Assembly (NCBI GenBank): GCA_031841125.1 | Contig: CM063106.1 | Span: 43,141,806-43,205,805, forward strand | Direction of reading: 5' to 3' | From: Acanthococcus lagerstroemiae | Taxonomy: Eukaryota; Arthropoda; Insecta; Hemiptera; Eriococcidae | Length of the DNA stretch: 64,000 nucleotides | Part shown: positions 2,897 to 46,000 of the stretch, piece after piece | How positions within the stretch are numbered: position 1 is the first letter of the stretch | Layout of the letters: each line of letters opens with the position of its first letter | The notes under the pieces: model-generated | The model's database searches: none | Told to the model about the DNA's origin: nothing | The model's input: only the letters and a program-made list of their open reading frames with translations | Made by a program: the position numbers and the translations under genes

Positions 2897-2904
2897 ATGG
2901 GGTT

Positions 2905-8978: not shown

Positions 8979-10060
8979 CTACCACCAGCGCCTACCCAAT
9001 AAGTAGGCAATCTTATTCACCTTCTTCTTGTTTCTTTTCGAAGTCGCATGGACGTTTGTATCCAGATAAGTTGGCGCACATAGCTCGCCAATGAATACCA
9101 GACTACTAAAGGCGAGTCCAAAAATCAGAATTATGAATGCGATTATCAAATTTTCGACTGTAAACACCACATTGGTTTGTTGCAGCGACATGTTGTGGTA
9201 ATCCGAGAGCGGTCTGTGTGGTTTCGCGTGGATGAACCAACTCTCGGTGATACCCGCCTCGACAAAGTAATTTATAACGTCGTTGAAACTGGCCACATAT
9301 GGCGATTTCTTCGGCATCAGATAGGCGATGTGGTAGGAACGTGGACACTCTTCGACAATGTGCAGCAGAATTTGGTCGCCCTTCACGTACGACATCGCGA
9401 TCTTTTCTTCCATATCGCTCTTGCGGCCGATAGCTGCCGCGTTCCTTTGTGCCGCTATCTCGCCGAGGATGTCCACATTTTCTGTCCACGAGAAACGCTG
9501 GAGCAGCCGCAGCATAACCGGATTCTCATCCGTCTCGAAAAGTTCCTTCAAGTTAAGCGAGGCAGTCAGTATACTTAACCGCGATTCGGCCAACTCTTCA
9601 ATCGTGTGCATGTCCTGCTCGTATGTCTCGTATGCTAGAAATTTGACCATAGAGCTTTGGAAGCTGCTAGCCACCACAAAACTGAACAGCAATATCGTTG
9701 ACATTATAACACGCTCTGCACAATCGACTGGGAACCGGTTGAGCGGCATCATCAAGAACATCGAGTACAGATTCAACCCTAACAGATTCGCATCGAAATG
9801 TCTCTCGTTCACCTTCTTGATCGTGTACCAAGATACGAGAGCCAACCAGTACGTTATTAGTAAGCTAATCCAGATGGACAGGTCGAAAGCCAAGAAAATG
9901 GTTTTCCACTTGGGCTTCGTCGAGGCTTTCGGTACGACGAAACACACTTGATCGAAGTGCACTGGCGTCGTGAACTGAATGTCTTCCGAAGGGTACTGTT
10001 TGATGAAAACGCCGTTGAATGCGATATCTGCCCGGCCATAAACGACCTCAGCCAGAGCAC
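8979..10060 (-). CDS. IR exon 3 (rest of S1, channel, S2, C-terminus)
   Basis: 1,082 nt, entered in phase 1 after a strong acceptor (TTCTGTTTCGCAG) at 10,061-10,062 and ending with TAG at 8,979-8,981. It encodes the end of S1 (ADIAFNGVFI, FTTPV), M1, pore, M2, all of S2 and M3, then a short basic cytoplasmic tail ending RRWW. Having the entire channel in one exon matches many insect divergent IRs. Frame is intact and codon use is uniform. Confidence 0.93.
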
Positions 10061-16000: not shown

Positions 16001-19000
16001 ACGATGGTAAAACTGCGTAATAGTCGGTATACGTAGCTGTTGAATACGTGGCAGCACTGTCGAAGGTTTCATTGCCAACAAACACCATGACTATGCATTG
16101 CGATAATGAAAAAGTTCTTTGTGATCGTAAATATGGAAGTTAACTGCCAATCTTACTGCAAAAGTATTTCGGTGGTTTTACAGCTAGCTCACCACCAGCG
16201 ACCGTAGTGCTACTATTGTACTGCCAGTCTTACTGCCAGTTCACGCATTGCCAGGTCACTGCCATCACATTGACCGTCGTGACTGTACTGCCACTAAGCG
16301 CTGTCAGTCTATTGCTAAAGCCAAATATTATCTACACGTGGACTGAAATTACTTCCTCGTTTTTCTGACCATTTTTATCGACCATCGCGGCAGTACTGTC
16401 TTACTGTTTACTGCCAAGTTCGCTGTCGAAACTTGGCCAGCCAACAGCAACAGAGCAATCGTATAAAGGTTTCAGAACAAGATGCTCCGGAGGAACACCT
16501 CGGTTTCTAACACCTCCATGTCGCCAGTTCCCCACCTATCGAAATTTGAAAATTTGACACATGGATTCGTTTGTGCTGGTTTGTGCTGCTATCCTTAGAG
16601 ATATATTAAAAAAACACTTTCAAGGTCAGCGGGGAACTGGCGACGTGCTCTTCCCCACCTAACAGATATCAGGCATTTGAATATGCCATTCGTTTGTGCT
16701 ACGTTTGTGCTGCCATTTTTTTCGTTTGTGCTGCAACCCCCTCGCTCCTACACTTCAAACAAGTTTTTATACACTATATATATAAAAATTTGAAAATAGT
16801 CAAAACCATTGAAACACGGTGCCAATCGTTTGTGCTACGTTTGTGCTACGGTTGTGCTGGATTGAGCTGGCATTTTTTTCGTTTGTGTTGCACCCCCTCC
16901 CTTCTAATATAGGTATAAGGTTACAAGTTCAGCCTATCAGTAAGGGAAATTTGAAAATCACTCGAAATGGCTAAAAATGGTACGAAACGTTTGTGCTACG
17001 TTTGTGCTGGCCTTATTTTTGTTTGTGCTACACCCCCTCCCCCATCTAGTGTTTCAGTCTAAATCCATAGCCTATGTATGAGAAAAATTTGAAAATCACT
17101 CAAGATGGCTAAGAATGGTATCAATCGGTTGTGCTACGTTTGTGCTGGATTGTGCTGACATTTTTTTCGTTTGTGCTACACCCCCTCCCTTCTAATATAG
17201 GTCTAAGGTTTCAAATTTAGCCCATCAGTAAAGGAAATTTGAAAATCACTCGACATGGCTAGAAATGGTACGAATCGTTTGTGCTACGTTTGTGCTGGAT
17301 TGTGCTGGTCTTATTTTCGATTGTGCTGCCCCACAATAGATGCATATTCTGCATGCATTCGGTGTATCCTAAAATTTAAAAATTAACTTTAATTTGAATT
17401 TAACATCGCGCGCCTAATTTAGTGCTGCGAGAAAAAATTGGAAGACAGATTCCTAATGACACTCCGATTTTACCTCGAAATTCAAATTTTATCCCGTCAA
17501 ACGGGTAAGACTAGCCAAACTCAGAAATTTGAACAAAATGGAGTTCGAATATTTGATCTGATTTTCGATTTGATCCCGACTAATTCCACCAAAGACATTT
17601 TTCCTTTCATGGGGTTAAATTTGACTTTGCCAAGATAAAGACTACTCCGGCAACACTAAAATAATGACAACACAGACAACACTAAAACAAAGGCAACACC
17701 AACAACACTAAAACAATTAACAACCCCAACAACACAAAAAAAATGATAACACTGACAACACACAAAAAATGATACCACCGACAACACTAAAAAAATGATA
17801 ACACCGACAACACTTAACTAATGACAACACCGACAACACTAAAAAAAAAAATGATGATAACACTAACAACACTAAAAAATAAATGACAACACTGATGACA
17901 CTAAAAAAAAATGACAAACCCGCAACACAAAAAAAATGACAACACCAACAACACTAAAAAAATGACAACACTAACAACACTAAAAAAAATCATGATAACA
18001 CTAACACCACTAAAAAATAAATGACAACACTGATGACACTAAAAAAAATGACAACACCAAGAACACTAAAATAACGGCAACACCAACAAAACTTAATAAA
18101 ATGACAACACCGACAACACTAAAATAATGGGAACACTCACAACACTAAAAAAAAATGACAACCACTGACAACACTACTAAAATGACAACACGGACAAAAC
18201 TAAAAAAAAAAAAATACAACACCAACAACGCTAAGAAAATGAACACACTGACAACACCAAGAAAATTACAACACAAACAACACTAAAATAATGACAACAC
18301 TGACTACACTAAAAAATGACAACCCCAGCAACACTAGAAACATGACAACACACACAAAAAAGATGAAAACATCGACAACACTACAAAAATGACAACTCCG
18401 ACAACACTAAAAAAGTGACAACACCAAAAACACTAAAATAATGACAACACTAACAACACTAAGAAAATGACAACACTAACAACACTAAAATACTGACAAC
18501 ACCAACAACAGTACAAAAATAAAAACATCGACAACACTAAAAAAAATAAAACTAAAAAATAAATGACAACACCTTCTGCACTAAAATAATGGGAACGCCG
18601 ACAACACTACAAAAATGACAACATCGACAACACTAAAAAAAAAATGACAACACCGACAACACTAAAATAATGACAAGACCGCCAACACTACAAAAATGAC
18701 AACATCAACCACACTAAAAAAATGAACACACCGACAACACGAAGAAAATGACAACACCAAAAACATGAAAATAATGAAAACACTGACTACACTAAAAAAT
18801 GACAACACCAACAAAAATGATGACAACACTGACAACACTACAAAAATGACAACACTGATAACACTAAAGAAATGACCACAACACTGAAAACACTAAAATA
18901 ATGACAACACTAAGAAAATGACAACATATACAACACTAAAATAATGACAACACCAACAATACTACAAAAATGACAACATCGACAACACTACAAAAATAAG

Positions 19001-22000
19001 AACACCGCTGTGTTGTCATTATTTTAGTGTTGTTGGTGTTGTCATTTTCTTAGTGCTGTTGGTGTTGTCATTTTTGTAATGTTGTTGGTGTTGTCATTTT
19101 TTTAGTGTTGTTGGTGTTGACGTTTTCTTTAGTGTTGTTGGTGTTGTTTCTTGTAGTGTTGTAGCGGTTCTCAATATATTAGTGTTGTCTGTGTTATGAT
19201 TTTCTTAGTGTTGTCAATTTTTTAGTGTTGTTAGTGTTGTCAGTTTTATAGTTTTGTCGGTGTTGTCATTTTATTTTATGTTGTTGATGTTGTCATTTTT
19301 GTAGTGTTGTCGGTGTTGTCAGTGTTGTCATTATTTTGGTGTTGTAAGTGTTGTCATTTTCTTAGTGTTTTTGGTGTTGTCATTTTCTTAGTGTTGTCAG
19401 TGTTGTCATTATTTTCGTGTTGTCAGTGTTGTCATTTTTATGTTGGTATTGTCATTTATTTTAGTGTTATTGGTGTTGTCATTTTTCTAGTGTTGTTATG
19501 GTGTCATTTTTTAAATGTTGTCAGTGTTGTCATTATTTTAGTGGTGTCAGTGTTGTCATTTTTTTTGTTGGTGTTGTCATTTATTTTAGTGTTGTTGGTG
19601 TTGTCATTTTTCTAGTGTTGTCATGGTGTCATTTTTTTAAATGTTGTTAGTGTTGTCATTTTTTTTAAAGTTGGTAGTGTTGTCATTTTTTTTTTAGTGT
19701 TGTCGGTGATGTCACCTTTTTAGTGTTGTCATTTTTCTAGTGTTGTCGGTGTTGTCATTATTTTAGTGTTGTCGGTGTTGTCATTATTTTAGTGTTGTCG
19801 GTGTTGTCATTTCTTTTAGTGTTGTTGATGCTGTCATTTTTTTAGTGTTGTCAATGTTGTCATTTTAGTAGTGTTGTCGGGGTTTTCATTTTATTAGTGT
19901 TGTTGGTGTTGTCATTTTTTTTAGTGTAGTTGGTGTTGTCAATTTAATAGTGTTGTTGGTGTTGTCATGTTTTAGTGTTGTCGAAGGTTATCAAAAATCA
20001 ACTTTTTTCCCTTCATGGGGCTAAATTTGACTTTGCCAAGAAAATGACAAGCCGGCAAACACTAAAATAATGACAACACTGACAACACTAAGGAATTGAA
20101 CACACCGACAACACTAAGAAAAAGACAACACTGACAACACTAAAATAATGACAAAACCGACAACACTACAAAAATGACAACATTGACAACAACAAGAAAA
20201 TGACAACAACAAGAAAATGACAACACCGTGGTGTTGTCATTATTTTAGTGTTCTTGGTGTTGTCATTTTCTTAGTGCTGTCGGTGTGTTCATTCTCTTAG
20301 TGTTGTCTGTGTTGTCATTAATTTAGTGTTGTCAATGTTGTCATTTTTGTAGTGTTGTCGGTGTTGTCATTATTTTAGTGTTGTCGGTGTTGCCATTATT
20401 TTAGTGTTGTCGGTGTGGTCATTTTTTTTAGTGTTATCGATGTTGTCATTATTTTAGTGTTGCCGGTTTGTCATTTTCTTGGCAAAGTCAAATTTAGCCC
20501 CATGAAGGGAAAAAAGTTGATTTTTGATCCGACTCGAACTTGCAAAAATTTATAAAACAGGTCTATTTAGATTAGGCACCACTGATTAAGCGTGACTAAC
20601 ACTTAATAATTATGAATGTTTTAATAAAAATTTCAAAAACCCGCTGCAGGGATTTTTCGGGTAAATAAGAGTGACGACTAGATAATAATATGAAGCATGA
20701 TGATTCTGTAGCGACACATTAGATGCACCTTCTGCATGCATTAGGTGTATCCTAAAATTTAAAAAGTAACTTTTATTTGAATTTACCATCTTGCGCCTAA
20801 TTTAGTGCTGCGAGAAAAAATTGATACTCCGATTTTCTCTCGAAATTCAAATTTTACTTCGTCAAACGGGTACGACTAGCAAAACCCAGAAATTTGAACA
20901 AAATAGAGTTCGAATATTAGATCTGATTTTCGATTTGATCCCGACTAATTCTACCAAAGACATTTTTCCGTTCTGGGGCTCCATTTGTCCTTGCCAAGAA
21001 AACGACTAACCCGGCAACACTCAAATAATGACCACACCGACAACACTACAAAAAGCCAACACTCAAAACACTAAAAAATATTAATGACAACACCAACAAC
21101 ACTACAAATATGAAGACACCGACAACACTACAAAAATGACAACATCGACGACACTAAAAAAAAATGAACACCGCAACAACACTAAGGAAATGACAACACC
21201 GACAACACTAAAATAATGACAACACCAAATACACTACAAAATTGACAACATCGACAAAACTAAAATAATGACAACACTGACAACACTAAGAAAATGAACA
21301 CACCGACAACACTAAGAAAATGACAACACCGAGAACACTAAAATAATGACAACATCGAAAACACTAAAAAAAAATGACAACACCGACAACACTAAAATAA
21401 TGGCAACACCGAAAATACTAAAATAATGACAACACCGACAACACTAATAAAATGAAAACCCCGACAACACTAAGAAAATGAACACGCCGACAACACTAAG
21501 AAAGACAACACCGAGAACACTGAAAAACGGCAACACTATAAACACTAACAAAATGACAACACTAAGAAAATTATAAGGCCGACAACACTTTTAAATTGAC
21601 AACACCAACTATACTAAAAAAAATGAAAACACAGACTACACTACAAAAATGACAACACTGACAATACTAAGAAAGTTACAACGCCGACAACACTAAAAAA
21701 ATGACAACACCGAGAACACTAAAATAATGACAACATCGACAACACTAAAAAAAATGACAACACCGACAACACTAAAATAATGGCAACACCGAAAACACTA
21801 AAATAATGGCAACACCGAAAATACTAAAATAATGGCAACACCGAAAATACTAAAATAATGACAACACCGACAACACTAATAAAATGAAAACCCTGACAAC
21901 ACTAAGAAAATGAACACGCCGACAACACTAAGAAAGACAACACCGAGAACACTGAAAAAAGGCAACACTATAAACACTAACAAAATGACAACACTAAGAA

Positions 22001-25000
22001 AATTATAAGGCCGACAACACTTTTAAATTGACAACACCAACTATACTAAAAAAAATGAAAACACAGACTACACTACAAAAATGACAACACTGACAATACT
22101 AAGAAAGCAACGCTGACAACACTAAAAAAATGACAACACCGACAACACTACAAAATTGGCAACATCGACAACACTAAGAAAATGATAAGACTGACAACAC
22201 TAAAATAATGACAACACCGACAACACTACAAAAATGAAAAAATCGACATCACTAAGAAAATGGTTACCCCGACAACACTAAAATAATGACAACACCAACA
22301 ACACTACAAAAATTAAAAACTTCGACAACACTAAAAAAAATGACAACGCCAACAACACACCAAAAATGAAAACGCCGACAACACTACAAAAATGACAACA
22401 TCGACAACACTGAGAAATTGATAACATCGACAACACTACAATAATGACAACACCGACAACACTACAAAAAACACAACACCAACAAAACTACAAAAATGAC
22501 AACATCGACAACACTAAAAAGAAATGACAACACCGACAACACTAAAACAATGACAACACCGACCACACTAAGAAAATTACAACGCCGACAACACTAATTA
22601 AATGACAACACCGACAACACTACAAAGATGACAACACCGACAACACTACAAAAATGACAACATTGACAACACTAAAAAAAATGACAACACCAACAACACA
22701 AAAAAATGAAAACGCCGACAACACTACAAAAATGACAACATCGACAACACTGAGAAATTGATAACATCGACAACACTACAATAATGACGACACTGACAAC
22801 ACTACAAAACTCACAACACTGACAACACTACAAAAATGACAACATCGACCACACTAAAAAAAATGACAACACTGACAACACTAAATAAATGACAACACCG
22901 ACAACACTAAGAAACTGACAGCATAGCGGTGTTGTCATTATTTTAGTGTTGTCCGTGTTGTCATTTTTTTTAGTGTTTTCGAAGTTGTCATTTTTGTAGT
23001 GTTTTCGGTGTTGTCATCTTTGTAGTGTTGTCGGTGTTGTCATTATTTTAGTGTTGTCAGTGTTATCATCTGCTTAGTGTTGTCGATGTTGTTATTTTTG
23101 TAGTGTTGTCAGTGTTGTCATTTTTTTCGTGTTGTCGGCGTTGTAATTTTCTTAGTGCTGTTGGTGTTATCATTATTTTAGTGTTGTCGGTGTTATCATT
23201 TTCTTAGTGTTGTCGATGTTGTCATTTTTTTCGTGTTGTCGGCGTTGTAATTTTCTTAGTGCTGTTGGTGTTATCATTATTTTAGTGTTGTCGGTGTTAT
23301 CATTTTCTTAGTGTTGTCATTTTTGTAGTGTTGTCGGTGTTATCATTTTTTTAGTGTAGTTGGGGTTGTCAATTGAAAAGTGTTGTCAGCGTTTTAATTT
23401 TCCTAGTGTTGTCGGTGTTGTCACTTTTGTAGTGTTGTCAGTATTCCCATTATTTTAGTGTTTTCAGTGTTGTCATTTAGTTTTTAGCGTTGTTAGTGTT
23501 GTCATTTTTTTTTAGTGTTGTTGGTGTTGCCATTATTTTCGTATTCTTGGTGTTGTCATTTTTTTAGTGTCATTTTTTTAGTGTTATTTGGGTTATCATT
23601 TTTTTTTTTAGTGTTGCCAGTGTAGTCATTTTCTTGCTAAACTCAAATTTAGCCCCATGAAGGAGAAAATGGCTTTGGGTGAATTAGTCGGGATCAAATC
23701 GAAAATCAGATCAAATATTCGAACTCCACTTTGTTCAAATTTCCGGGTTTGGCTAGTCTTACGCGTTTGAAGTGATAAAATTTGAATTTCGAGGGAAAAT
23801 CGGAGTATTATTAGGAATCCGTTTTCCAATTTTATGGCAGCACTAAATTAGGCATGCGATGGTAAATTCAAATAAAAGGTAATTTTTACATTTTAGGATA
23901 TACCTAATGCATGCAGAATAAGTATGCACCTATTGTGTCGCTACTGATTCATCATACTTCATATTATTATCTAGTCGTCACTCTTATTTACCCGAGTAAT
24001 CCCTGCAGCGGGTTTTTGATTTTTTTTTTTTTTCATTCATATTCATCAAGTATTAGTCAGGCTTAATCAGTTGTGCCTAATTTATATAGAGCCGTTTTTC
24101 AATTTTTTGCTTATTTGAGTCGGATTGAAAATCAACGTTTTTCTCTTCATGGGGCTAAATTTCACTCTGCCAAGAAAATCTTAACACTGACAACACTAAA
24201 ATAATGACGACACCGACAACACTTTAAAATAACAACACCAACAACACTATTATATTGACAACACCAACAACACTGGAAAAATAACAACACCAACAACACT
24301 ATTAAATTGACAACACCAACAACACTAAAACATTGACAACACTAACAACACTAACAAAATGACAACACTAAGAAAATTATAACGCCGACAACACTTTTCA
24401 ATTGACAACACCAACTACACTAAAAAAATAAAAACACGGACTACGCTACAAAAATGACAACTCGGACAATACTAAGATAGTTACAACGCCGACAACACTA
24501 CAAAAATGACAACACCGACAACACTACAAAATTAGCAACATCGACAACACTAAGAAAATGATAACACTGACAACACTAAAATAATGAAGACACAGACAAT
24601 ACTACAAAAATGACAAAATCGACAACACTAAGAAAATGAATACACCGACAACACTAAAAAAATGATACCACCGACAACACTAAAAAAATGATAACACCGA
24701 CAACACTTAACTAATGACAACACCGACAACACTAAAAAAAAAAATGATGATAACACTAACAACACTAAAAAAATAAATGACAACACTGATGACACTAAAA
24801 AAAATGACAAACCCGCAACACAAAAAAAAATGACAACACCAACAACACTAAAAAAATGACAACACTAACAACACTAAAAAAAAATGATGATAACACTAAC
24901 ACCACTAAAAAATAAATGACAACACTGATGACACTAAAAAAAATGACAACACCAAGAACACTAAAATAACGGCAACACCAACAAAACTTAAAAAAATGAC

Positions 25001-28000
25001 AACACCGACAACACTAAAATAATGGGAACACTCACAACACTAAAGAAAAATGACAACCACTGACAACACTACTGAAATGACAACACGGACAAAACTAAAA
25101 AAAAAAATACAACACCAACAACGCTAAGAAAATGAACACACTGACAACACCAAGAAAATTACAACACAAACAACACTAAAATAATGACAACACTGACTAC
25201 ACTAAAAAATGACAACCCCAGCAACACTAGAAACATGACAACATACACAAAAAAGATGAAAACATCGACAACACTACAAAAATGACAACTCCGACAACAC
25301 TAAAAAAGTGACAACACCAAAAACACTAAAATAATGACAACACTAACAACACTAAGAAAATGACAACACTAACAACACTAAAATACTGACAACACCAACA
25401 ACAGTACAAAAATAAAAACATCGACAACACTAAAAAAAATAAAACTAAAAAATAAATGACAACACCTTCTGCACTAAAATAATGGGAACGCCGACAACAC
25501 TACAAAAATGACAACATCGACAACACTAAAAAAAAAAATGACAACACCGACAACACTAAAATAATGACAAGACCGCCAACACTACAAAAATGACAACATC
25601 AACCACACTAAAAAAATGAACACACCGACAACACGAAGAAAATGACAACACCAAAAACATGAAAATAATGAAAACACTGACTACACTAAAAAATGACAAC
25701 ACCAACAAAAATGATGACAACACTGACAACACTACAAAAATGACAACACTGATAACACTAAAGAAATGACAACAACACTGAAAACACTAAAATAATGACA
25801 ACACTAAGAAAATGACAACATATACAACACTAAAATAATGACAACACCAACAATACTACAAAAATGACAACATCGACAACACTACAGAAATAAGAACACC
25901 GCTGTGTTGTCATTATTTTAGTGTTGTTGGTGTTGTCATTTTCTTAGTGCTGTTGGTGTTGTCATTTTTGTAATGTTGTTGGTGTTGTCATTTTTTTAGT
26001 GTTCTTGGTGTTGACGTTTTCTTTAGTGTTGTTGGTGTTGTTTCTTGTAGTGTTGTAGCGGTTCTCAATATATTAGTGTTGTCTGTGTTATGATTTTCTT
26101 AGTGTTGTCAATTTTTTAGTGTTGTTGGTGTTGTCAGTTTTATAGTTTTGTCGGTGTTGTCATTTTATTTTATGTTGTTGATGTTGTCATTTTTGTAGTG
26201 TTGTCGGTGTTGTCAGTGTTGTCATTATTTTGGTGTTGTAAGTGTTGTCATTTTCTTAGTGTTTTTGGTGTTGTCATTTTCTTAGTGTTGTCAGTGTTGT
26301 CATTATTTTCGTGTTGTCAGTGTTGTCATTTTTATGTTGGTATTGTCATTTATTTTAGTGTTATTGGTGTTGTCATTTTTCTAGTGTTGTTATGGTGTCA
26401 TTTTTTAAATGTTGTCAGTGTTGTCATTATTTTAGTGGTGTCAGTGTTGTCATTTTTTTTGTTGGTGTTGTCATTTATTTTAGTGTTGTTGGTGTTGTCA
26501 TTTTTCTAGTGGTGTCATGGTGTCATTTCTTTAAATGTTGTTAGTGTTGTCATTTTTTTTTAATGTTGTGAGTGTTGTCATTTTTTTAAAAGTTGGTAGT
26601 GTTGTCATTTTTTTTTTAGTGTTGTCGGTTTTGTCACCTTTTTAGTGTTGTCATTTTTCTAGTGTTGTCGGTGTTGTCATTATTTTAGTGTTGTCGGTGT
26701 TGTCATTATTTTAGTGTTGTCGGTGTTGTCATTTCTTTTAGTGTTGTTGATGCTGTCATTTTTTTAGTGTTGTCAATGTTGTCATTTTAGTAGTGTTGTC
26801 GGGGTTTTCATTTTATTAGTGTTGTTGGTGTTGTCATTTTTTTTAGTGTAGTTGGTGTTGTCAATTTAATAGTGTTGTTGGTGTTGTCATTTTTTAGTGT
26901 TGTCGAAGGTTATCAAAAATCAACTTTTTTCCCTTCATGGGGCTAAATTTGACTTTGCCAAGAAAATGACAAGCCGGCAAACACTAAAATAATGACAACA
27001 CTGACAACACTAAGGAATTGAACACACCGACAACACTAAGAAAAAGACAACACTGACAACACTAAAATAATGACAAAACCGACAACACTACAAAAATGAC
27101 AACATTGACAACAACAAGAAAATGACAACACCGTGGTGTTGTCATTATTTTAGTGTTCTTGGTGTTGTCATTTTCTTAGTGTTGTCGGTGTGTTCATTCT
27201 CTTAGTGTTGTCAATGTTGTCATTTTTGTAGTGTTGTTGGTGTTGTCATTATTTTAGTGTTGTCGGTGTTGCCATTATTTTAGTGTTGTCGGTGTGGTCA
27301 TTTTTTTTAGTGTTATCGATGTTGTCATTATTTTAGTGTTGCCGGTTTGTCATTTTCTTGGCAAAGTCAAATTTAGCCCCATGAAGGGAAAAAAGTTGAT
27401 TTTTGATCCGACTCGAACTTGCAAAAATTTATAAAACAGGTCTATTTAGATTAGGCACCACTGATTAAGCGTGACTAACACTTAATAATTATGAATGTTT
27501 TAATAAAAATTTCAAAAACCCGCTGCAGGGATTTTTCGGGTAAATAAGAGTGACGACTAGATAATAATATGAAGCATGATGATTCTGTAGCGACACATTA
27601 GATGCACCTTCTGCATGCATTAGGTGTATCCTAAAATTTAAAAAGTAACTTTTATTTGAATTTACCATCTCGCGCCTAATTTAGTGCTGCGAGAAAAAAT
27701 TGGAAAACGGATACCTAATGATACTCTGATTTTCTCTCGAAATTCAAATTTTACTTCGTCAAACGGGTACGACTAGCAAAACCCAGAAATTTGAACAAAA
27801 TAGAGTTCGAATATTAGATCTGATTTTCGATTTGATCCCGACTAATTCTATCAAAGACATTTTTCCGTTCTGGGGCTCCATTTGTCCTTGCCAAGAAAAC
27901 GACTAACCCGGCAACACTCAAATAATGACCACACCGACAACACTACAAAAAGCCAACACTCAAAACACTAAAAAATATTAATGACAACACCAACAACACT

Positions 28001-31000
28001 ACAAATATGAAGACACGGACAACACTACAAAAATGACAACATTGACGACACTAAAAAAAAATGAATACCCCAACAACACTAAGGAAATGACAACACCAAC
28101 AACACTAAAATAATGACAAGACCAAATACACTACAAAATTGACAACATCGACAAAACTAAAATAATGACAACACTGACAACACTAAGAAAATGAACACAC
28201 CGACAACACTAAGAAAATGACAACACCGAGAACACTAAAATAATGACAACATCGACAACACTAAAAAAAAATGACAACACCGACAACACTAAAATAATGG
28301 CAACACCGAAAATACTAAAATAATGACAACACCGACAACACTAATAAAATGAAAACCCTGACAACACTAAGAAAATGAACACGCCGACAACACTAAGAAA
28401 GACAACACCGAGAACACTGAAAAAAGGCAACACTATAAACACTAACAAAATGACAACACTAAGAAAATTATAAGGCCGACAACACTTTTAAATTGACAAC
28501 ACCAACTATACTAAAAAAAATGAAAACACAGACTACACTACAAAAATGACAACACTGACAATACTAAGAAAGTTACAACGCTGACAACACTAAAAAAATG
28601 ACAACACCGACAACACTACAAAATTGGCAACATCGACAACACTAAGAAAATGATAAGACTGACAACACTAAAATAATGACAACACCGACAACACTACAAA
28701 AATGAAAAAATCGACATCACTAAGAAAATGGTTACCCCGACAACACTAAAATAATGACAACACCAACAACACTACAAAAATTAAAAACTTCGACAACACT
28801 AAAAAAAATGACAACGCCAACAACACACCAAAAATGAAAACGCCGACAACACTACAAAAATGACAACATCGACAACACTGAGAAATTGATAACATCGACA
28901 ACACTACAATAATGACAACACCGACAACACTACAAAAAACACAACACCAACAAAACTACAAAAATGACAACATCGACAACACTAAAAAGAAATGACAACA
29001 CCGACAACACTAAAACAATGACAACACCGACCACACTAAGAAAATTACAACGCCGACAACACTAATTAAATGACAACACCGACAACACTACAAAAATGAC
29101 CACATCGACAACACTAAGAAGATGATAACACCGACAACACTAAAATAATGACAACACCGACAACACTACAAAGATGACAACACCGACAACACTACAAAAA
29201 TGACAACATTGACAACACTAAAAAAAATGACAACACCAACAACACAAAAAAATGAAAACGCCGACAACACTACAAAAATGACAACATCGACAACACTGAG
29301 AAATTGATAACATCGACAACACTACAATAATGACGACACTGACAACACTACAAAACTCACAACACTGACAACACTACAAAAATGACAACATCGACCACAC
29401 TAAAAAAAATGACAACACTGACAACACTAAGAAAATTACAACGCCGACAACACTAAATAAATGACAACACCGACAACACTAAGAAACTGACAGCATAGCG
29501 GTGTTGTCATTATTTTAGTGTTGTCGGTGTTGTCATTTTTTTTAGTGTTTTCGAAGTTGTCATTTTTGTAGTGTTTTCGGTGTTGTCATCTTTGTAGTGT
29601 TGTCGGTGTTGTCATTATTTTAGTGTTGTCAGTGTTATCATCTGCTTAGTGTTGTCGATGTTGTTATTTTTGTAGTGTTGTCAGTGTTGTCATTTTTTTC
29701 GTGTTGTCGGCGTTGTAATTTTCTTAGTGCTGTTGGTGTTATCATTATTTTAGTGTTGTCGGTGTTATCATTTTCTTAGTGTTGTCATTTTTGTAGTGTA
29801 GTTGGGGTTGTCAATTGAAAAGTGTTGTCAGCGTTTTAATTTTCCTAGTGTTGTCGGTGTTGTCACTTTTGTAGTGTTGTCAGTATTCCCATTATTTTAG
29901 TGTTTTCAGTGTTGTCATTTAGTTTTTAGCGTTGTTAGTGTTGTCATTTTTTTTTAGTGTTGTTGGTGTTGCCATTATTTTCGTATTCTTGGTGTTGTCA
30001 TTTTTTTAGTGTCATTTTTTTAGTGTTATTTGGGTTATCATTTTTTTTTTTAGTGTTGCCAGTGTAGTCATTTTCTTGCCAAACTCAAATTTAGCCCCAT
30101 GAAGGAGAAAATGGCTTTGGGTGAATTAGTCGGGATCAAATCGAAAATCAGATCAAATATTCGAACTCCATTTTGTTCAAATTTCTGGGTTTGGCTAGTC
30201 TTAGGCGTTTGAAGTGATAAAATTTGAATTTCGAGGGAAAATCGGAGTATTATTAGGAATCCGTTTTCCAATTTTATGGCAGCACTAAATTAGGCGTGCG
30301 ATGGTAAATTCAAATAAAAGGTAATTTTTAAATTTTAGGATATACCTAATGCATGCAGAATAAGTATGCACCTATTGTGTCGCTACTGATTCATCATACT
30401 TCATATTATTATCTAGTCGTCACTCTTATTTACCCGAGTAATCCCTGCAGCGGGTTTTTGATTTTTTTTTTTTTCATTCATATTCATCAAGTATTAGTCA
30501 GGCTTAATCAGTTGTGCCTAATTTATATAGAGCCGTTTTTCAATTTTTTGCTTGTTTGAGTCGGATTGAAAATCAACGTTTTTCTCTTCATGGGGCTAAA
30601 TTTCACTCTGCCAAGAAAATCTTAACACTGACAACACTAAAATAATGACGACACCGACAACACTTTAAAATAACAACACCAACAACACTATTATATTGAC
30701 AACACCAACAACACTGGAAAAATAACAACACCAACAACACTATTAAATTGACAACACCAACTACACTAAAACATTGACAACACTAACAACACTAACAAAA
30801 TGACAACACTAAGAAAATTATAACGCCGACAACACTTTTCAATTGACAACACCAACTACACTAAAAAAATGAAAACACGGACTACACTACAAAAATGACA
30901 ACTCCGACAATACTAAGATAGTTACAACGCCGACAACACTACAAAAATGACAACACCGACAACACTACAAAATTAGCAACATCGACAACACTAAGAAAAT

Positions 31001-34000
31001 GATAACACTGACAACACTAAAAAAATGATAACACCGACAACACTTAACTAATGACAACACCGACAACACTAAAAAAAAAAAATGATGATAACACTAACAA
31101 CACTAAAAAAATAAATGACAACACTGATGACACTAAAAAAAATGACAAACCCGCAACACAAAAAAAAATGACAACACCAACAACACTAAAAAAATGACAA
31201 CACTAACAACACTAAAAAAAATGATGATAACACTAACACCACTAAAAAATAAATGACAACACTGATGACACTAAAAAAAATGACAACACCAAGAACACTA
31301 AAATAACGGCAACACCAACAAAACTTAAAAAAATGACAACACCGACAACACTAAAATAATGGGAACACTCACAACACTAAAAAAAAATGACAACCACTGA
31401 CAACACTACTAAAATGACAACACGGACAAAACTAAAAAAAAAAAATACAACACCAACAACGCTAAGAAAATGAACACACTGACAACACCAAGAAAATTAC
31501 AACACAAACAACACTAAAATAATGACAACACTGACTACACTAAAAAATGACAACACACACAAAAAAGATGAAAACATCGACAACACTACAAAAATGACAA
31601 CTCCGACAACACTAAAAAAGTGACAACACCAAAAACACTAAAATAATGACAACACTAACAACACTAAGAAAATGACAACACTGACAACACTAAGAAAATG
31701 ACCACATTGACAACACTAAGAAAATTACAACGCCGACAACACTACAAAAATGACAATATCGACAACACTATAAAATGACAACACTAACAACACTAGGGAA
31801 ATGATAACGCCGACAACACTTTTGAATTGACAACACCAACTACACTAAAAAAATGAAAACACAGACAACACTACAAAAATGACAACAGTGACCACACTAA
31901 GAAAATGATAACACCGACAACACTGAGGAAATTACAACGCAGACGAAACTAAAAAAAATGACAACACTGAAAACACTACAAAAATGAAAACCCCAACAAC
32001 ACTAATAAAATGACAACACCGACAACATTAGGAAAATTATAAGGCCGACAACACTTTTAAATTGACAACACCAACTACACTAAAAAAAATGAAAACACCG
32101 ACAACACTACAAAAATGGCAACACTGACAACACTAAGAAAATGACCACATTGACAACACTAAGAAAATTACAACGCCGACAACACTACAAAAATGACAAT
32201 ATCGACAACACTATAAAATGACAACACTAACAACACTAGGGAAATGATAACGCCGACAACACTTTTGAAGTGACAACACCAACTACACTAAAAAAATGAA
32301 AACACAGACAACACTACAAAAATGACAACAGTGACCACACTAAGAAAATGATAACACCGACAACACTGAGGAAATTACAACGCAGACGAAACTAAAAAAA
32401 ATGACAACACTGAAAACACTACAAAAATGAAAACTTTGACCACTCTACAAAAATGACAACATCGACAACACTAAAAATAATGACAACGCCGACAACACTA
32501 AAAAAATGACAACACCAACAACACTACAAAAATGACAACATTGACAACACTACAAAAATGACAACATCGACAACACTAAACAAAATGACAACACTGACCA
32601 CACTAAAATAATGGCAACACAGTCAACACTAAAATAATGACAACACTACAAAAATGACAACATCAACAACACTAAGAAAATGAACACACAAACAACACTA
32701 AGAAAATGACAACACGGAGAACACTAAAAACATGACAACATCGACAACACTTTAAAAATGACAACATCGACAAAACTAAAAGATATGACAACATTGACAA
32801 CGCAAAATAATGACAACACTGACAACACTAAGAAAACGACAACACCGAGAACACTAAAATAATGACAACACCGCGGTGTTGTCATTTTCTTGTTGTTGTC
32901 TGTGTTTTCATTTTTGTAGTGTTGTCAGTATTGTCATTATTTTAGTGTTGTCGGTGATATCATTTTCCTAGTGTTGTCGATGTTGTCATTTTTGTAGTGT
33001 TCTCACTTTTGTAGTGTTGTCGGTGTTGTCATTTTTGTAGTGTTCTCACTTTTGTAGTGTTGTCGGTGTTCCCATTATTTTAGTGTTTTCAGTGTTGTCA
33101 TTTATTTTTTAGTGTTGTTAGTGTTATCATTTTCTTTAGTGTTGTTGGTGTTGCCATTATTTTAGTGTTCTTGGTGTTGTCATGTTTTTTTAGTATTATT
33201 TGTGTTATCATTTTTTCTTTGTGTTGTCAGTGGTATCCTGATTTTTTTGTTGTCTGTGTTGTCGTTTTCATAGTGTTGTTGGTGTTGTCAATAATTTTTC
33301 AGTGTTGTTAGTGTTGACTTTTTTTTTTAGTGTTGCCGGTGTAGTCATTTCCTTGGCAAAGTCAAATTTAGTCCCAAGAAGGGAAAAATTTCTTTGGTGG
33401 AATTAGTCATGATCAAATTGAAAGTCAGATCAAATATTCGAACTCTATTTTGTTCAAATTTCTAGGCTTGGCTAGTCTTAAGCGTTTGACGGGATAAAAT
33501 TTGAATTTCGAGGGACAATTGGAGTATCATGAGGAATCCGTTTGCCATTTTTTTTCGCAGCACTAAATTAGGCGCGCGATTGTAAATTCAAATAAAAGTT
33601 ACTTTTTAAATTTTAGGATACACTTAATGCATGCCGAATATGCATCTAATGTGTCGCTACAGAATCATCATGCTTCGTATTATAATGTAGTCGTCACTCT
33701 TATTTACCCGAAAAATCTCTGCAGCGGGTTTTTGAATTTTTCCTTTAACATTCATATTCATTAAGTATTAGTAACGCTTAACCAGTTGTGCCTAATTTAA
33801 AAGACCAGTTATTCAATTTTTTGCCAATTTGAGTTGGGTCGAAAATTAAATTTCTTCCTTCATGGGGCTAAATATGAATCTGCCAAGATAATCTTAACAC
33901 CGGCAACACTACAAAAATGACAACGCCGACAACTCTAAAAAATGACAACACTGACAACACTACAAAAATGACAACATCGACAAAACTACAAAAATGACAA

Positions 34001-37000
34001 CATCAACAACACTAAAAAGAATGACAACACCGACAACACTATAAAAATGACAACATTGACAACACTAAGAAAATGATAACACCGACAACACTGAAATAAT
34101 GACAACACCGACAACACTACAAAAATGACAACACCCACAACACTACAAAAATGACAACACCGACAAAACTAAGAAAATTACAATGCCGACAAAACTAAAA
34201 AAAAAATGACAACACTACAAAAATGACAACATCAACAACACTAAAAAAATGAAAACGCCGACAACACTAAAAAAAATGACAACACCGACAACACTACAAA
34301 AATGACAACATCGACAACACTAAGAGAATGATAACACTGACAACACTAAAATAAAGACAACACCAACAACACTAATAAAATGACAACACCGACAACACTA
34401 GGAAAATTATAACGCCGACAACACTTTTGAATTGACAACACCAACTACACTAAAAAAATGAAAACACAGACAACACTACCTAAATGACAACAACGACAAC
34501 ATTAAAACAATGGCAACACCGACAACACTAAAATAATGACAACACGGACAACACTAAGAAAATGAACACACCGACCACACTAAGAAAATGACAACACCAG
34601 GAACACTAAAATGATGACCACACCGCGGTGTTGTCATTTTCTTGGTGTTGTCAATGTTGTCATTTTTGTAGTGTTGTCGGTGTTATCATTTTCTTAATTT
34701 TGTCGATGTTGTCATTTTTGTAGTGTTGTCGGTGTTGTCATTTTCTTAGTGTTGTCAATTTTGTCATTATTTTAGTGTTGTTGGTGTTGTCACTTTTGTA
34801 GTGTTGTCGGTGTTGTCATTCTTTTTAGTGTTGTTGATGTTGTCATTTTTGTAGTTTTGTCGATGTTGTCATTTTTGTAGTGTTGTCGGTGTTGTCATTT
34901 TTTAGAGTTGTCGGCGTTGTCATTTTTGTAGTGTTCTCACTTTTGTAGTGTTGTTGGTGTTCCCATTATTTTAGTGTTTTCAGTGTTGTCATTTATTTTT
35001 CAGTGTTGTTAGTGTTGTCATTTATTTTAGCGTTTTTGGTGTTGCCATTATTTTAGTGTTCTTGGTGTTGTCATTTTTTTAGTGTTATTTGTGTTGTCAG
35101 TGTGATCATTATTTTTTGTGTTGTCTGTGTTGTCATTTTTGTAGTGTTGTTGGTGTTGTCATTTTCTTGGCAAAGTCGAATTTAGCCCCATGAAGGGAAA
35201 TATCTCTGTGGTGGAATTAGTCGGGATCAAATCAAAAATCAGATCAAATATTTGAACTCCATTTTGTTCAAATTGCTGGGTTTGGCTAGTCTTATAAAAT
35301 AATCATTTCGAGGGAAAATCGGAGTATCATTAGGAATCCGTTTTCCAATTTCTTCTCGCAGCACTAAATGAGGCGCGCGATGGTAAATTTAAATAAAAGT
35401 TGATTTTTAAATTTTAGGATACACCTAATGCATGCAGAATATGCATCCATTGTGTCGCTACTGAATCATCATGCTTCGTGTTATTATCTAGTCGTCACTC
35501 TTATTTACCCGAGGAATCCCTGCAGCTGGTTTTAGAATTTGTTTTTTTAACATTCATATTCATCAAGTATTAGTCACGCTTAATCAGTTGTGCCTAATTT
35601 AAATAGACCCATTTTTCAATTTTTTGCAAATTTGTGTCGGATCGAAAATCAATTTTTTCCCCTTCATGTGGCTAAATTTGACTTTGCCAAGAAAATGACA
35701 ACACCGGCAACACTAAAATAATGATAACACTGACAACACTAAGAAAATTACAAAACCAACAACACTACAAAAATGAAAACATCGACAACACTAAAAGAAA
35801 TGACAACACCGACAACATGAAGAAAATTGACAACCCCGACAACACTAAAATAATGACAACACAGCGGTGTTGTCATTTTCTTAGTGTTGTCGGTGTTGTC
35901 ATTTTTGTAGTGTTGTCAGTGTTACAATTTTTTTTGTGTTGTTGGTGTTGTCATTTTTTTAGTGTTGTTGGTGTTGTCATTTGGTTTTTAGTGTTGTTAG
36001 TGTTGTCATTTTTTAAAGTGTTGTTGTTGCCATTTTTTTAGTGTTGTCGGTGTTGTTATTATTTTAGTGTTGTCAGTGTTGGCATTTTTTTAGTGTTGAC
36101 GGTGTTATCATTTTTTTTGTGTTATCGGTGTTATCATTTATTTTTGTGTTGTTGATGCGTTCATTTTTTTAGTGTTGTTGGTGTTTTTAATTTATTTAGT
36201 GTTGTTCGTGTTGCCTTTTTTTTTAGTGTTGTCGGTGTTGTCATTTTTTAATGTTGCCGGAGTAGTCTTTTTCTTGGCAAAGTTAAATTCAGCCCCATGA
36301 AGGGAAAAATGTCTTTGGTGGAATTAGTCGGGATCAAATGGAAAATCAGATCAAATATTTGAACTCCATTTTGTTCAAATTTCTGAGTTTGGCTAGTCTT
36401 ACCCGTTTGACCCGATAAAATTTGAATTTCGAGGGAAAATCGGAGTGTCATTAGGAATCTGTTTTCCAATATTTTCTCGCAGCACTAAATTAGGCGCGCG
36501 ATGGTAAATTCAAATTAAAGTTAATTTTTAAATTTTAGGATACACCGAATGCATGCAGAATATGCATCTATTGTGGGGCAGCACAAACGAAAATAAGGCC
36601 AGCACAATCCAGCACAAACGTAGCACAAACGATTCGTACCATTTCTAGCCATGTCGAGTGATTTTCAAATTTCCCTTACTGATGGGCTAAACTTGAAACC
36701 TCAGACCTATATTTGAAGGGAGGGGTGTAGCACAAACGAAAAAAATGTCAGCACTATCCAGCACGAACGTCGCACAACCGATTGATACCATTCTTAGCCA
36801 TCTCGAGTGATTTTCAAATTTTTCTCATACATAGGCTGTGGATTAAGACTGAAACACTAGATGGGGGAGGGGGTGTAGCACAAACAAAAATAAGGCCAGC
36901 ACAAACCAGCGCAAACGCTTCGTACCATGTTTAACCATTTCGAGTGATTTTCAAATTTCTCTTATTGATAGGCTAAACTTGAAACCTTATACCTATATTA

Positions 37001-40000
37001 GAAGGGAGGGGGTGCAATACAAATGAAAAAAATGCCAGCTCAATCCAGCGTAACCGTAGCACAAACGATTGGCACCGTGTTTCAATGGTTTTGACTATCT
37101 TCAAATTTTTATATATATATGTGTGTGTGTATAAAAACTTGTTTTAAGTGTAGGGGCGAGGGGGTTGCAGCACAAACGAAAAAAATGGCAGCACAAACGA
37201 GCACAAACGTAGCACAAACGAATGGCATATTCAAATACCTGATATCTGTTAGGTGGGGAAGAGCATGTCGCCAGTTCCCCACTGACCTTGAAAGTGTTTT
37301 TTTTTTTTAATATCTCTCTAAGGATAGCAGCACAAACGATGAAAATTTCAGCACAAACCAGCACAAACGTAGCACAAACGAATCCATGTGTCAAATTTTC
37401 AAATTTCGATAGGTGGGGAACTGGCGACATGGAGGTGTTTTTAATTTCATTCTGATCTCTGAATTCCAACCGTTTACCAAACTACTCAAACCTATATGCC
37501 AACAGACACAAGGGTCGCCTCCATCGACACTCCAATTACCCCGCGGTATCTTTGCTGGACATTTTATGGGAGACGCCCCGGCTCCGAAGGAGACACCCTG
37601 CGGACCTAGCTTAAGTCTCCCCTCCTAAATGTGCCTCTACTTGTAGTATTAACACCCCTTCAAGGCTGTAGAGGGGAATCGTTTTCTTAATAGCTCACGT
37701 GTTTCTCCTACTTGTCAACAGTATTTTGTAGATGTTTATTTGTATACCTAAAACAGTTCAGTATACAAAAATTATTTTAAAAAACCTAAGGTATGGTGAC
37801 GCGTCACATATTGTCAACTTACCTGTAAATTTTCCATCATTATCTTTCCATCCGTACTTATGACCATCTTTGGGCACCGTTATAATTGGCGTGAAATTCA
37901 TCTGCTTAGCCAGTGTCTGCAGTATAATACCATCGTACCCGGCGTACGTACCATCTGGTTGTGGCACTGCTTTTAACCGAGTCGGGAACATCGTAACCCG
38001 AATCGGGTAGCCGTTCAAATTCGACATTTTCTTACGCGTGATCTTGGCAATATTGTCGAGCATCATGTTCCCGTCATCTGCTCCGATATCGGTTTCAGTT
38101 AAGGTGTCAAAAAAGGGGTTGTAGGACATCACTTTGCTCGGATTCTCTAACCCCATTATCCACACGTGCGTGATGAAGAAGTTGTTCCATAAATCCTTAA
38201 AAATCTCCCCGCAGTCAGTTGGAATGTCACGAAGCAAGATTATGTAGGAGATCCCCGGCTCCCAAATCAGCAGACGTTCAAACAGCATTCGGTAAAGCTT
38301 CGTTGTGTTGCCATATATCATTAGCATTGCCCGACTAAATGGAAGCGTGGTCTCGGAGTCACTCAGGATGATCGGATTGACCTTGAGGAAATGTCAGAAC
38401 TTGTAAAATCATCGTTGAACTGTGTTGCGAAAACGAGTAAGTAGATATACTAAGGTGTCCCTTATTTTAAGAGTTTTCGCCAATCGATTAGGTGAGCACT
38501 GAAATTTGTTCCAATGGGCCTCAAGTTGAGGTCACTAACCCGCAGTGGCGGAGCTAAGGGGGTCCCAGAGAGGCCATGAACCCCTCAAAAAAATTTTGGC
38601 CTCCCCAAAAAATTTCCCAAAATTCAAATATTCGGCTAAAAAGTAAAAAAAATGACCGACTTGTTTAGTTCTCGAGCGTCAATACGTGCATTATAAACAA
38701 AGACTATATTATGGTGAAAAAATTAAATATATATATTTTAGAATTTGACGGGTCTCTTTTCATGACTTCAATATGAATTGTTAGAGCTAAACTTTTTTTT
38801 TTCATCGATTTCTCCTGCCCCTTGGCTCCTCCTAGAAGAAAAGCTAGCTTCACCTCTGTTAACCCGTGCCCCTTTGACCTTAAAGTTATGTATAATACTG
38901 AGATTTTACAAAAAATCACAAATATCTCGGAACATATCAACTTCAGGACCAAAATGCATATAATATAAAATGTTTCTTGTTCAATTTTCTATAAAAAAGA
39001 TTCAATACAACTTTTCACTAGAACGCATATTTACCGAGATAATTGCAAAAATGTGTAAAAGTTTCGAGGAACGTGGCTTTTGTTATTTTTTCTTTTACAA
39101 CCAATCTTTACTAGCTAAATCAGTTATCTAAAACATTATTCACTTTAGGACGAAGATACACAGAGCATAAAATATTCCTTGTTAAATTTTCTATAAAAAG
39201 GTTCCTTACAATTTTTCTTTAGAAAACATATTTATTGAGATAATCGCAACAATGCGTGGAATTTCCGAAAAACATGTTTTTTAAAATTATTTTACGGCTG
39301 AAATACTATCTATTAATGTTAATGCACACTACAATATAATTTCAGTCTCTGTCTACATGGGCAAGCGCCCCACAGTTTACCCCTCCCCACCTGCCTACAC
39401 CAATGACAGTTTGTTGGGTACACCTACTAAGTAGACCTCGGATTATGTATGTATATCAACATAAAGTCAACAGTTTGCGCATAAGATATAACATTATACT
39501 GTTAACAATCACGTGTTCCCAGAATTCAGGGTCATTTCCTATGGGCAAATCTGTGTTTCCTATTGTTGATACACATCATCTCAAGTCCATCATACTAAGT
39601 CTTCGACGGAATATTAGAATGCTCAAAAGACTCAATAAAAACAGTATAAGCCAGGGGTTCCCAACAAAAAATTTTCAAGGACACCTGAAAGAATCGGTAT
39701 ATTTCAAGGACCCCTTATGTATATAATGCATTTAAATATACTTCAAATTTGCTAAAACTATCAAATTCCTGACGAACGAAACATTTTTGGATTAGCTCGC
39801 GAACCTTCAAGTCATCCGTCGCGGACCACCTGTTGGGAACCACAGGTATAAGCATACCTAAATGTCCTTAGCGGAAACTGACACGTTTCAATTAGGAACT
39901 TATGTTTTCTTACTTGGACGAGCAACGTAACCACTTTCTGCACCTGTTTTTCTTCATCTCATCGGTCAAGGGGTGAAGATGGATACATCCCGATCTGTAA

Positions 40001-43000: not shown

Positions 43001-46000
43001 ATTACTGGAAAATTTACATGTGATTTTTGTGTTTCAAAATGAAAAATGATCAAATAAAATGGTATTTTTTGAAAGTTAAAAATTTTTTGTTATGTGTAGT
43101 CATCTTACCTTCACGCAATAGTTATCTTACCCACCCACTGAGGGCAAGATGACTAAACTTGGAACTTTTGGCAGTTTCATAAGGTGATCATAGATTACCC
43201 CAATATTTTCAACAAAAAAAATACCAAGCAGTGTCCAAAGGATGTAAGTTTTTGGTAAAAACATTATATTTGAATTCGGATGAATAATGGACTCAGTAAA
43301 AGACAATATCGAGTGTCTCATGCACACTTGACCTAAGTGACAAAAGCCGTTTTCTTCAGGAGAGCGATTCGAAAATTATAAATAACGTTATCTAGGGGGC
43401 TAAAAAAGGAAGTAATTCGTCATTTGCGAGTGTAGCCCGATAGAGGGCATCGAGATCGATAAGAATATGAATTTAATTCATTTTTCGTCGAAATGTCACT
43501 TAGGTCAATTGTGCATGAGACACTCGATATACACTAAGTGCGTCATCTTACCACCCCCTATTCTAATTATTAATTTTTCTCATCACAATATTTCATTTTT
43601 TGTTTTTCCGATCTTTTCTCAGGTACTGTCTCCCTAGGGCTGCTACACTGAATTTTAGGAATAACAAACACATTCGCAACAAGTAAAAATAAAAAGATTC
43701 TACACATTATTTACCTATTTTTTATTTAGAAAATATAGAACAACATACGCAAACTTCGAAGAACTTACAAAAATGCGAAAAAATAAACGAGGGACACATA
43801 AAAATACCGAAAAGTACTTCAAAACAGTAATTTATAACACTATTTTTATTTTTTTTTTGCTTTTTACGAATTTTTGAAAATACTGGACGTGTAGCAACCC
43901 TAACCGCACCTAATCTGATAAAATAATTTTTCTCTTGATAAATTGGGAAAAAATTGAATTCGAAGAAAGCAATTTTTTAGAATAAATTTTATGATTTTTG
44001 TTCACTGTTCCATTTATTTCATTTTTGAACGTATATATGAACTTTCCTCAAGTGTATCTCTGATGTTTTTGGCTAGAAATATCTGGAACTTGGAAACCTG
44101 ATATTTAGTCTATTTTCAGACTGTACTCCAGAAAAAAAAGTGGGTTTTCAAAATTACCTCAAATACTGTTTAACTTTGAAAACGATTTTACATAATTATA
44201 GCTTCTTACTAGAAAAAGGTAGGCAAAACTTTTTCTCACTCTTGTTATACTACTTTCAGAATTCTATCGGGTTCTGTAATCAGTTTTGTCCTAACTAGAT
44301 CATCCAATCGGTAAATTTTTTTAATACACTTAAAACCTTTCGAACTAACCCCATTTTACGCTGTTTTGCACTAACTTACGAGTATTTAGTGCGATTTGGT
44401 AAGAATCAAGTATAGCGATTCTGTACGAACACTGTGCATATCTGTGCATTTTTGGGGTGCCTGGTCGGGTTTGAAACAGATCTAGGTGAATTTTCTCACG
44501 GGTAATCTTGTCTTATAGTCGTATTTTAATAGTATCTAATTTATTGTATTACTGGAATATTGTAGAATACCAGTGTGGATGGTGGAAAATGTACTCACTG
44601 AGTTGTGGTGTAGTTGTAGTAGAAACTGCCAGGGAAGTGGTGTGGTTTCAGGTGTAAAGTTATGTGTTCCTCGGTGTTTTATCAAGACCAGAGGTACACT
44701 GACCCGCTGGATGAGGTCAATAAGGTGGTGCATACGTTCAGGAATTGCAGCTGTGCGGATGAGGCTGCACAGAGCGGTGATGCTGGTTCAGCCCTCAGCC
44801 TAGAGCTTAGAAACATCTGTGGTGACATGGCCTGCATTCCAAACCGTATACTTGGATCTACGTGCATGGGGTCCTTACTTGCTGAATGGGGTCACTGGAG
44901 GGGTGCACGATCTAGATCAGTATTTCTCAACATTTTTTGCGTCGCGGCACACTTTTCCACTTGTAGTTTTTCCCGCGGCACACCATTCCCAAAATAACAC
45001 GAATAAGGCAAATTCTTTCAGCTAATACTTCAAAAAGTTCAGAAAATGAGTGCACTTAATATAAAGAATGAGGAAAGAAATTTTGAAAGCAAAAATAATA
45101 TTAAAATTACTGCATTAATGAAATATTTGGGCTTCACGTTGTCTACATAGATTGGTAATACGAAGTTCAGTACCAGATAGGCACAATTGTAGATTTAACG
45201 TCGATGCCGCAAGCCTTTCAAGTCGTTTGTGTTTGATGTTTGTGAGGACCAAATAATCATGTTCATAACACCAAGATATTGAGAACTGCAGTAATATGTT
45301 AACTGCTGTTTCGGAAAGGTGGGGATATTTATTATGAAGACTGATCTAAAAACTGCTCACAGAAACCTCACTGAATACATTTTAATAAATTTTTTGTTTT
45401 CATTGCGCAAACCTCGCGGTACACCTACATAAGTCTGGCGGCACTCCACCCGATGCGCAAAATCCCACCAGTTACCCGGGTAATTAAAGGGGAACAAGGG
45501 TAATCTGAGCGTAACCGAAACGGGTAACTTTTCGGCCGCGGGTAACTAGAGGGTAACTAACTGCGTAGTATCCCACCAATTCGATGATGGAGGGGTGTAT
45601 GGCGATGCACGCATGGCCAAACTGGCCCCGGGACGCCGCACCCCCTATCCCGGAAACGCCCCGAATGGGCCTTCGTCAGAATAGGGGAGTATCCCGCCAA
45701 TTACCCGGGTAACTAAAGGGGAACAAGGGTAATCTGAAGGTAATCTGAGGGTAACTCGAGGATAACAAATGGGCAACTTTTCCGCGGGTAACTGGGTAAC
45801 TAGACGGTAACTGATTGCGCATCGGGCAGTGTGCCGCGGCATACCGGTTGAGAAACACTGATCTCGATGTACTGAGCTAAGCTTAGATAAGTCGGTCTAG
45901 CCCTAATGTAGGGTTCCCTAAAAATTGAACGCAGAAAATTGATCGCAGCGGAAAATTGATCGCATAAGAAAACTGATCGCATGGAAATTGGAAGCAGGGA

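Follow-up and report, generated by a model that had tools for sequence, protein, structure and literature searches.

How satellites originate and spread to new chromosomes is unsettled, and foldback transposons have come under suspicion of playing a part in it. Among foldbacks, the FB/NOF elements of Drosophila melanogaster have inverted ends of short tandem repeats, produce 9-bp target duplications and measure a few kilobases, while the target duplication of Galileo is shorter. Here we describe a foldback element at positions 16512–37436 of a 64-kb stretch of the Acanthococcus lagerstroemiae genome (G000:C1:43141806–43205805; this whole stretch is hereafter called the window), which shares with FB/NOF the tandem-repeat ends and the length of the duplication but, unlike them, reaches 20,925 bp. 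Most of this length is a palindromic satellite, and to our knowledge no FB/NOF element has such a core. The element is a foldback shell typical of its family around a satellite foreign to that family, and part of its length comes from tandem duplication. We consider it rather probable that a foldback copy in an intron of a putative ionotropic-receptor gene took up the palindromic satellite once, that the resulting joint came to stand at each end, and that growth of the interior followed in situ. A single genome thus holds the shell with and without the satellite, the satellite with and without the shell, a single dated joint and later growth. This makes the order of events testable with a few related genomes.

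Several described systems resemble parts of this arrangement. Tetris of Drosophila virilis is likewise a non-autonomous foldback with internal tandem repeats in its terminal repeats and a link to satellite arrays; its target duplications are 8–10 bp and its terminal repeats reach 1.7 kb (PMC4079207). However, the satellite unit of Tetris (~220 bp) belongs to its own terminal repeats (PMC4079207), whereas the satellite described here is palindromic and present in one copy of the family only. In Tm1 of root-knot nematodes, short tandem units make up the composite terminal repeats, the target duplications are 9 bp long, and some derivatives resemble miniature inverted-repeat transposable elements (MITEs), all of which is true of the family studied here (the R family) as well; Tm1, however, includes a known transposase-encoding member (PMC3169594), and none was found in the R family. 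The long terminal repeats of Galileo grow through tandem repeats and recruited internal sequence, a feature also seen here, although Galileo encodes a P-superfamily transposase and its terminal repeats measure 0.3–1.2 kb (PMC3573991). Animal Pack-TIRs formed by gap filling are, like our element, single-copy DNA transposons with foreign sequence, and their median microhomology is 2 bp (PMC8277862), compared with the 0–1 bp shared at the joint described below. They differ in that the filler here is satellite DNA that, from what was observed, came from another chromosome, lies behind the same joint at both ends and has grown. Finally, the Xenopus MITE miDNA4 is proposed to have captured an existing tandem repeat and then to have formed longer arrays, as recounted in PMC12628747, although it is a short Tc1/mariner element. 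Each step of the history proposed here has a precedent, and their combination was not met in the literature searched.

A Family-Typical Foldback Shell

The element is bounded by two outer arms, which we call R arms. The left arm (16512–17331, plus strand) starts with the terminus ACCTCCATGTCGCC and continues in the tandem repeats of ~150 bp (core CGTTTGTGCT) that are typical of the family, while the right arm (36576–37436) lies on the minus strand and differs from the left at 33 of 807 aligned columns. A preliminary description, made from the letters of the window, had reported inverted outer arms of ~0.85 kb and a 20.9-kb foldback structure, both of which are confirmed as read from the assembly. 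It had also placed the element at 16509..37439 with 69 identical outermost bases; counted from the true termini at 16512 and 37436, the identity covers the first 66 bases, and the remaining three (AAC) belong to the flanks. Directly outside the termini lie the two copies of a 9-bp target-site duplication, GTTTCTAAC on the left (16503–16511) and GTTTTTAAT on the right (37437–37445), identified by comparing the flanks and matching at seven of nine positions.

Searching the genome (658 Mb, 438 contigs) with a terminal 37-mer returned 46 matches at up to three mismatches (24 forward, 22 reverse; none with the reversed control), which resolve into 19 facing pairs and eight single ends. One further end on C5 (L045) was seen in the DNA search only, and with that end, which is among the matches listed there, the family with ACCTCCATGTCGCC ends numbers at least 28 loci. 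The absence of any further copy with these ends, which the preliminary description had named as refuting its reading, was not observed. The family has the inverted ends with short tandem repeats and the variation in length among copies that are expected of foldbacks, the 19 pairs ranging from 0.24 to 20.9 kb (median 2.1 kb); the size of a few kilobases that the preliminary description gave for FB-type foldbacks of Drosophila does not hold as a limit for the R family, in which a second copy measures 15.7 kb.

Target duplications were compared in 18 paired copies, the one in the window included. The 9-bp flanks match at all nine positions in eight pairs, at eight in two, at seven in four and at two to five in the other four, one of which has a perfect 8-bp duplication. 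Summed over all copies, 128 of 162 positions match, compared with a mean of 49 and a maximum of 78 in 5,000 shuffles. A length of nine stands out against lengths of 6, 7, 10 and 11, and at a length of eight the score equals the shuffled maximum (58 vs 58) because one copy has an 8-bp duplication. The duplications that the preliminary description had wished to see as a sign of mobility thus mark the family, with 14 of the 18 copies at seven to nine matching positions. Several insertions thus have the same ends and are flanked by target duplications, which shows that the family is a mobile foldback, apparently a non-autonomous one.

For comparison of interiors, 20 loci holding 19 other copies were fetched (L045 in part only; a 235-bp pair on C7 lies outside this set). 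Two long copies share ~6 kb of interior without a long reading frame, pieces of which are present in several shorter copies, and in the 15.7-kb copy (L050) the right arm has grown to at least 43 copies of a 150-bp unit (L050 1–6401). The 235-bp pair (G000:C7:10070415–10070649) carries both ends and has a MITE-like form. Inside another copy, a frame of 185 aa (L043 1180–1734) looks by eye like the remnant of a pogo-type transposase.

A Satellite Foreign to the Family

Between the arms, and replacing the family's own interior, lies a core of ~19 kb of palindromic satellite, in which a spacer of ~540 bp stands between inward-pointing 26-bp repeats and the units follow one another end to end in both orientations. 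Arrays of the 26-bp repeat form nine head-to-head pairs in the core, which also contains six full spacers (two minus, four plus) with inverted edges of ~45 bp, two 60-bp spacer remnants and a half spacer at each end. It opens with the left half spacer (17332–17640, minus), which is followed at 17641–20468 by the 26-bp minisatellite, running plus then minus around a center at ~19008 and, beyond a 60-bp spacer-edge remnant (19990–20049), plus then minus again around ~20228. Full spacer 1 (20469–21002, minus) is separated by a head-to-head minisatellite pair (21003–23627, center ~22925) from spacer 2 (23628–24179, plus), after which two pairs (24180–27347, centers ~25902 and ~27134) enclose the second remnant (26912–26971). 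Spacer 3 (27348–27899, minus), a pair at 27900–30069 (center ~29498), spacer 4 (30070–30620, plus) and a pair at 30621–33346 (center ~32873) come next, followed by spacer 5 (33347–33892, plus) and its neighboring pair (33893–35160, center ~34625). Spacer 6 (35161–35700, plus), which served as the query for the genome search, the last pair (35701–36266, center ~35865) and the right half spacer (36267–36575, plus) complete the core. The preliminary description had noted a ~26-bp repeat that changes strand nine times; the repeat is as described, while the nine head-to-head pairs amount to 17 strand switches. At the nine palindrome centers the flanking sides are only 62–91% alike, and the centers are thus not fresh perfect palindromes. 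Descent of the 26-bp repeat from the arm repeat was also considered, but the likeness is weak, its score being reached in 10 of 500 and 22 of 500 shuffles.

When half and full spacers were compared by BLAST with the 20 fetched loci (E 1e-4), no spacer was found in the 19 other copies, and all matches fell in the window. The preliminary description had seen the element as a foldback relative with a layered design; the foldback transposon stands, but the idea that the layered interior is the design of the mobile element is not supported, as this interior is lacking from these other copies.

The satellite, in turn, occurs without the shell. A query of 37 spacer bases matched the genome at 68 places with up to three mismatches (control, none), eight of them in the element, 14 on C2, 40 on C7 and six elsewhere; these counts are lower bounds, as divergent spacers escape the 37-base query. 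The C7 array extends from ~39,070,300 to 39,161,880 (~91.6 kb) with at least 40 spacers, and both of its edges and parts between them were read. On C2, an array of at least 14 spacers starts at ~35,551,190, where its left edge was read, and is still running at 35,610,500 (>59 kb). R arms stand neither at the two edges of the C7 array nor at the left edge of the C2 array, and the idea that these arrays are giant members of the foldback family was rejected for both ends of the former and for the left end of the latter. The six remaining matches are solitary spacers at C4:33417134, C7:35708815, C8:33949699, C9:37445149, C6:31109709 and C204:36685. No other spacer match was found on C1 outside the window at up to three mismatches; the filler thus lacks a nearby source of the kind that is usual, though not required, in Pack-TIRs.

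A Unique Joint and Apparent Growth in Place

On both sides of the element the arm meets the spacer where GTGCTGCCCC passes into ACAATAGATG, with at most one shared base. This joint has two matches in the genome, both at the ends of this element (control, none), and is therefore unique, as in the single-copy filled form of gap-filled Pack-TIRs. Left and right half spacers break off at the same base, as the preliminary description had it, and differ at 13 of 309 columns. They are each other's nearest relatives among the spacers compared (95.8%, against 93.4% for the next).

An internal tandem duplication spans 17941–31100, with ~17.94–24.5 kb repeated at ~24.8–31.1 kb and a period that falls from 6.9 kb on the left to 6.4 kb on the right. 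Changes in array length aside, the two blocks are 98–100% identical in ungapped 300-bp steps. Spacer 3 has three mismatches in 534 positions to spacer 1, and spacer 4 has seven in 551 to spacer 2. These duplicated spacers (10 of 1085 positions mismatched) are more alike than the half spacers (13 of 309, p = 0.0003) and more alike than arms and half spacers taken together (46 of 1116, p = 1e-6), which indicates that the joint was doubled before the duplication arose, provided that the blocks were not renewed by conversion between them.

A Transposase Probably Supplied in trans

The R family shows the target duplications of ~9 bp expected of Mutator-like elements (MULEs), and we place it there because of the length of the duplication together with the foldback habit, as for Tm1, the enzyme itself being inferred. 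Merlin and other superfamilies also give duplications of 8–9 bp. Most likely, the family is moved in trans by a MULE transposase, which would bind its ends. Such a transposase is available, as at least 150 matches to PF10551 over the cut-off are present in the genome (150 scored of 773 candidates). Four MULE reading frames had no match (E 1) in the element or in the 19 other fetched copies, among which no autonomous member was identified, and the longest copies (L042, L049/L050) hold short frames only, with no match to MULEs.

In this search of copies, MULE matches were limited to the L044 flank and to window sequence beyond the element. At L044 2567–3051, the right flank of an R copy matches a MULE transposase (2679–3002), and this copy seems, judging from that match, to be inserted into a MULE gene. 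In the window, a second small foldback-like element at 45917–46645 has inverted arms of ~16-bp repeats (AAAATTGATCGCA) together with MULE coding sequence. Its transposase fragment (46570–46196, minus) is 54% identical to a frame of L074 and is not recognized by Pfam.

Order of Events and Alternative Explanations

We propose that an internal break would have occurred in a foldback copy already residing in the intron, and that repair of the gap with satellite DNA may have created one arm/spacer joint. This joint could then have been copied to the other end across the inverted arms, which would have added half a spacer to each terminal repeat, as terminal repeats are known to recruit internal sequence in Galileo (PMC3573991). 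Lastly, the interior would have expanded in situ, a growth that includes one or more tandem duplications of 6.4–6.9 kb.

Several observations weigh against this explanation. The target duplication of the element is imperfect (7/9), three of the 18 copies (L036, L039, L043) have no fitting duplication, and none of the 150 scored MULE candidates (of 773) lies within ~109 kb of any listed copy when the lists are compared by eye. If the joint had been carried across the element by conversion, the two arms were expected to be each other's nearest kin, which they are not, and this lowers the weight of the step. Over their first 420 bp the two arms are 96.4% alike, whereas the left arm shares 97.8% with L033 and the right arm 97.6% with L042; in the inner 331 bp, L043 is a closer match to either arm than the opposite arm is. 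Copies radiating star-like from a single source would give such a pattern. The divergence of the arms therefore cannot serve to date the insertion, the data do not show that whole arms were copied from one end to the other, and the copying step is backed by the joint and the half spacers alone. The order of growth could also be mimicked by later conversion between the blocks or by duplication in the assembly. Finally, the spacer tree shows window spacers at scattered positions and not as a group within those of C2 and C7, as would also be expected if the satellite had begun here.

This last point bears on a Tetris-like origin, in which the foldback would be the place where the repeat originated or turned into a satellite and would have seeded the arrays on C2 and C7, with loss of the arms. 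We regard such an origin as unlikely, although Tetris itself is a published case of a foldback seeding a satellite (PMC4079207). A tree of 35 spacers, rooted at the midpoint, shows the greatest diversity among the window spacers, which occupy three or more places and require at least two changes (three on the best tree), and 16 of the 17 C7 spacers form one supported set, as this origin would have it. However, one divergent C7 edge spacer groups with a window spacer at a support of 93/93, which falls short of the starring limit, suggesting that old lineages exist outside the element too, and the tree has no outgroup and holds 27 spacers from C2 and C7, a part of those in the arrays. Its shape is compatible with an old, varied satellite sampled by the element and, equally, with a source inside the element. 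Other observations argue against an origin within the foldback: the repeat is found in none of the 19 other copies, the unit is not shared by the family's own terminal repeats, and the six solitary spacers are spread over six contigs (five large, one small) and, where they share a contig with listed R ends, lie at a distance of >1 Mb from these. Doubtful, too, is a broader role of the foldback arms as both vehicle and nursery, in which terminal repeats would recruit satellite, inverted repeats would keep the interior flipping and duplicating, and a 20-kb seed would found the C2 and C7 arrays.

Uptake of the satellite by a copy already in the intron also has to be weighed against arrival of the element near its full size, as a giant non-autonomous transposon already loaded with satellite. 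That the target duplication flanks the whole (7/9) and that the family includes a 15.7-kb copy would agree with such a move, but it appears improbable given that the joint is single-copy and that the block duplication arose later than the half spacers. In addition, Pack-MULEs did not exceed 7 kb and the efficacy of transposition falls over 6 kb, according to a review (PMC6431247). It is hardly credible that two unrelated things are seen here, either a foldback inserted into an older satellite array or R ends flanking a satellite by chance: the satellite does stand independent of R arms elsewhere, but in the window the 26-bp array is confined to ~17.6–36.3 kb with no satellite outside the ends, which face each other, have matching 9-bp flanks and share the same joint. 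An artefact of assembly in the length or order of the repeats we judge very unlikely. Near-identical blocks of 6.4–6.9 kb do typically trouble assemblers, and the structure is read from the assembly alone. Yet the blocks differ by array lengths and scattered substitutions, the sides of the palindrome centers are only 62–91% alike, such arrays are found three times, each on a different contig, and the shell, the joint and the duplication do not depend on the number of repeats.

Host Gene and Neighboring Features

Two minus-strand coding stretches flank the element and join in frame to encode 550 aa with no stop. The upstream stretch (37823–38393) ends at the donor AG/GTAAGT, and the downstream exon (8982–10060), which encodes the channel part of an ionotropic-receptor-like protein, follows the acceptor TTTCGCAG/G. 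The intron between them measures 27,762 bp, of which the element makes up 75%. Compared with Lig_chan, the channel domain scores 27.3 bits, under the Pfam cut-off of 30.8, and it matches solved glutamate receptors at 1.9e-6. The nearest named matches of the protein are aphid-like (Adelges, Melanaphis 46%, Daktulosphaira 38%), with an ionotropic receptor from the kin of aphids among them. On these similarities, the host gene is predicted to be ionotropic-receptor-like.

The right end of the element lies 0.4 kb from the donor, and long palindromic DNA thus persists within that distance of a splice site. No coding function was seen in the element, and no known RNA families or tRNAs were found in the window; transcribed together with the intron, the element would yield a long hairpin RNA. 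Elsewhere in the window, pieces of a pogo/Tigger-like transposase with a Tc5-type DNA-binding domain and DDE_1 are present at 5230–6447.

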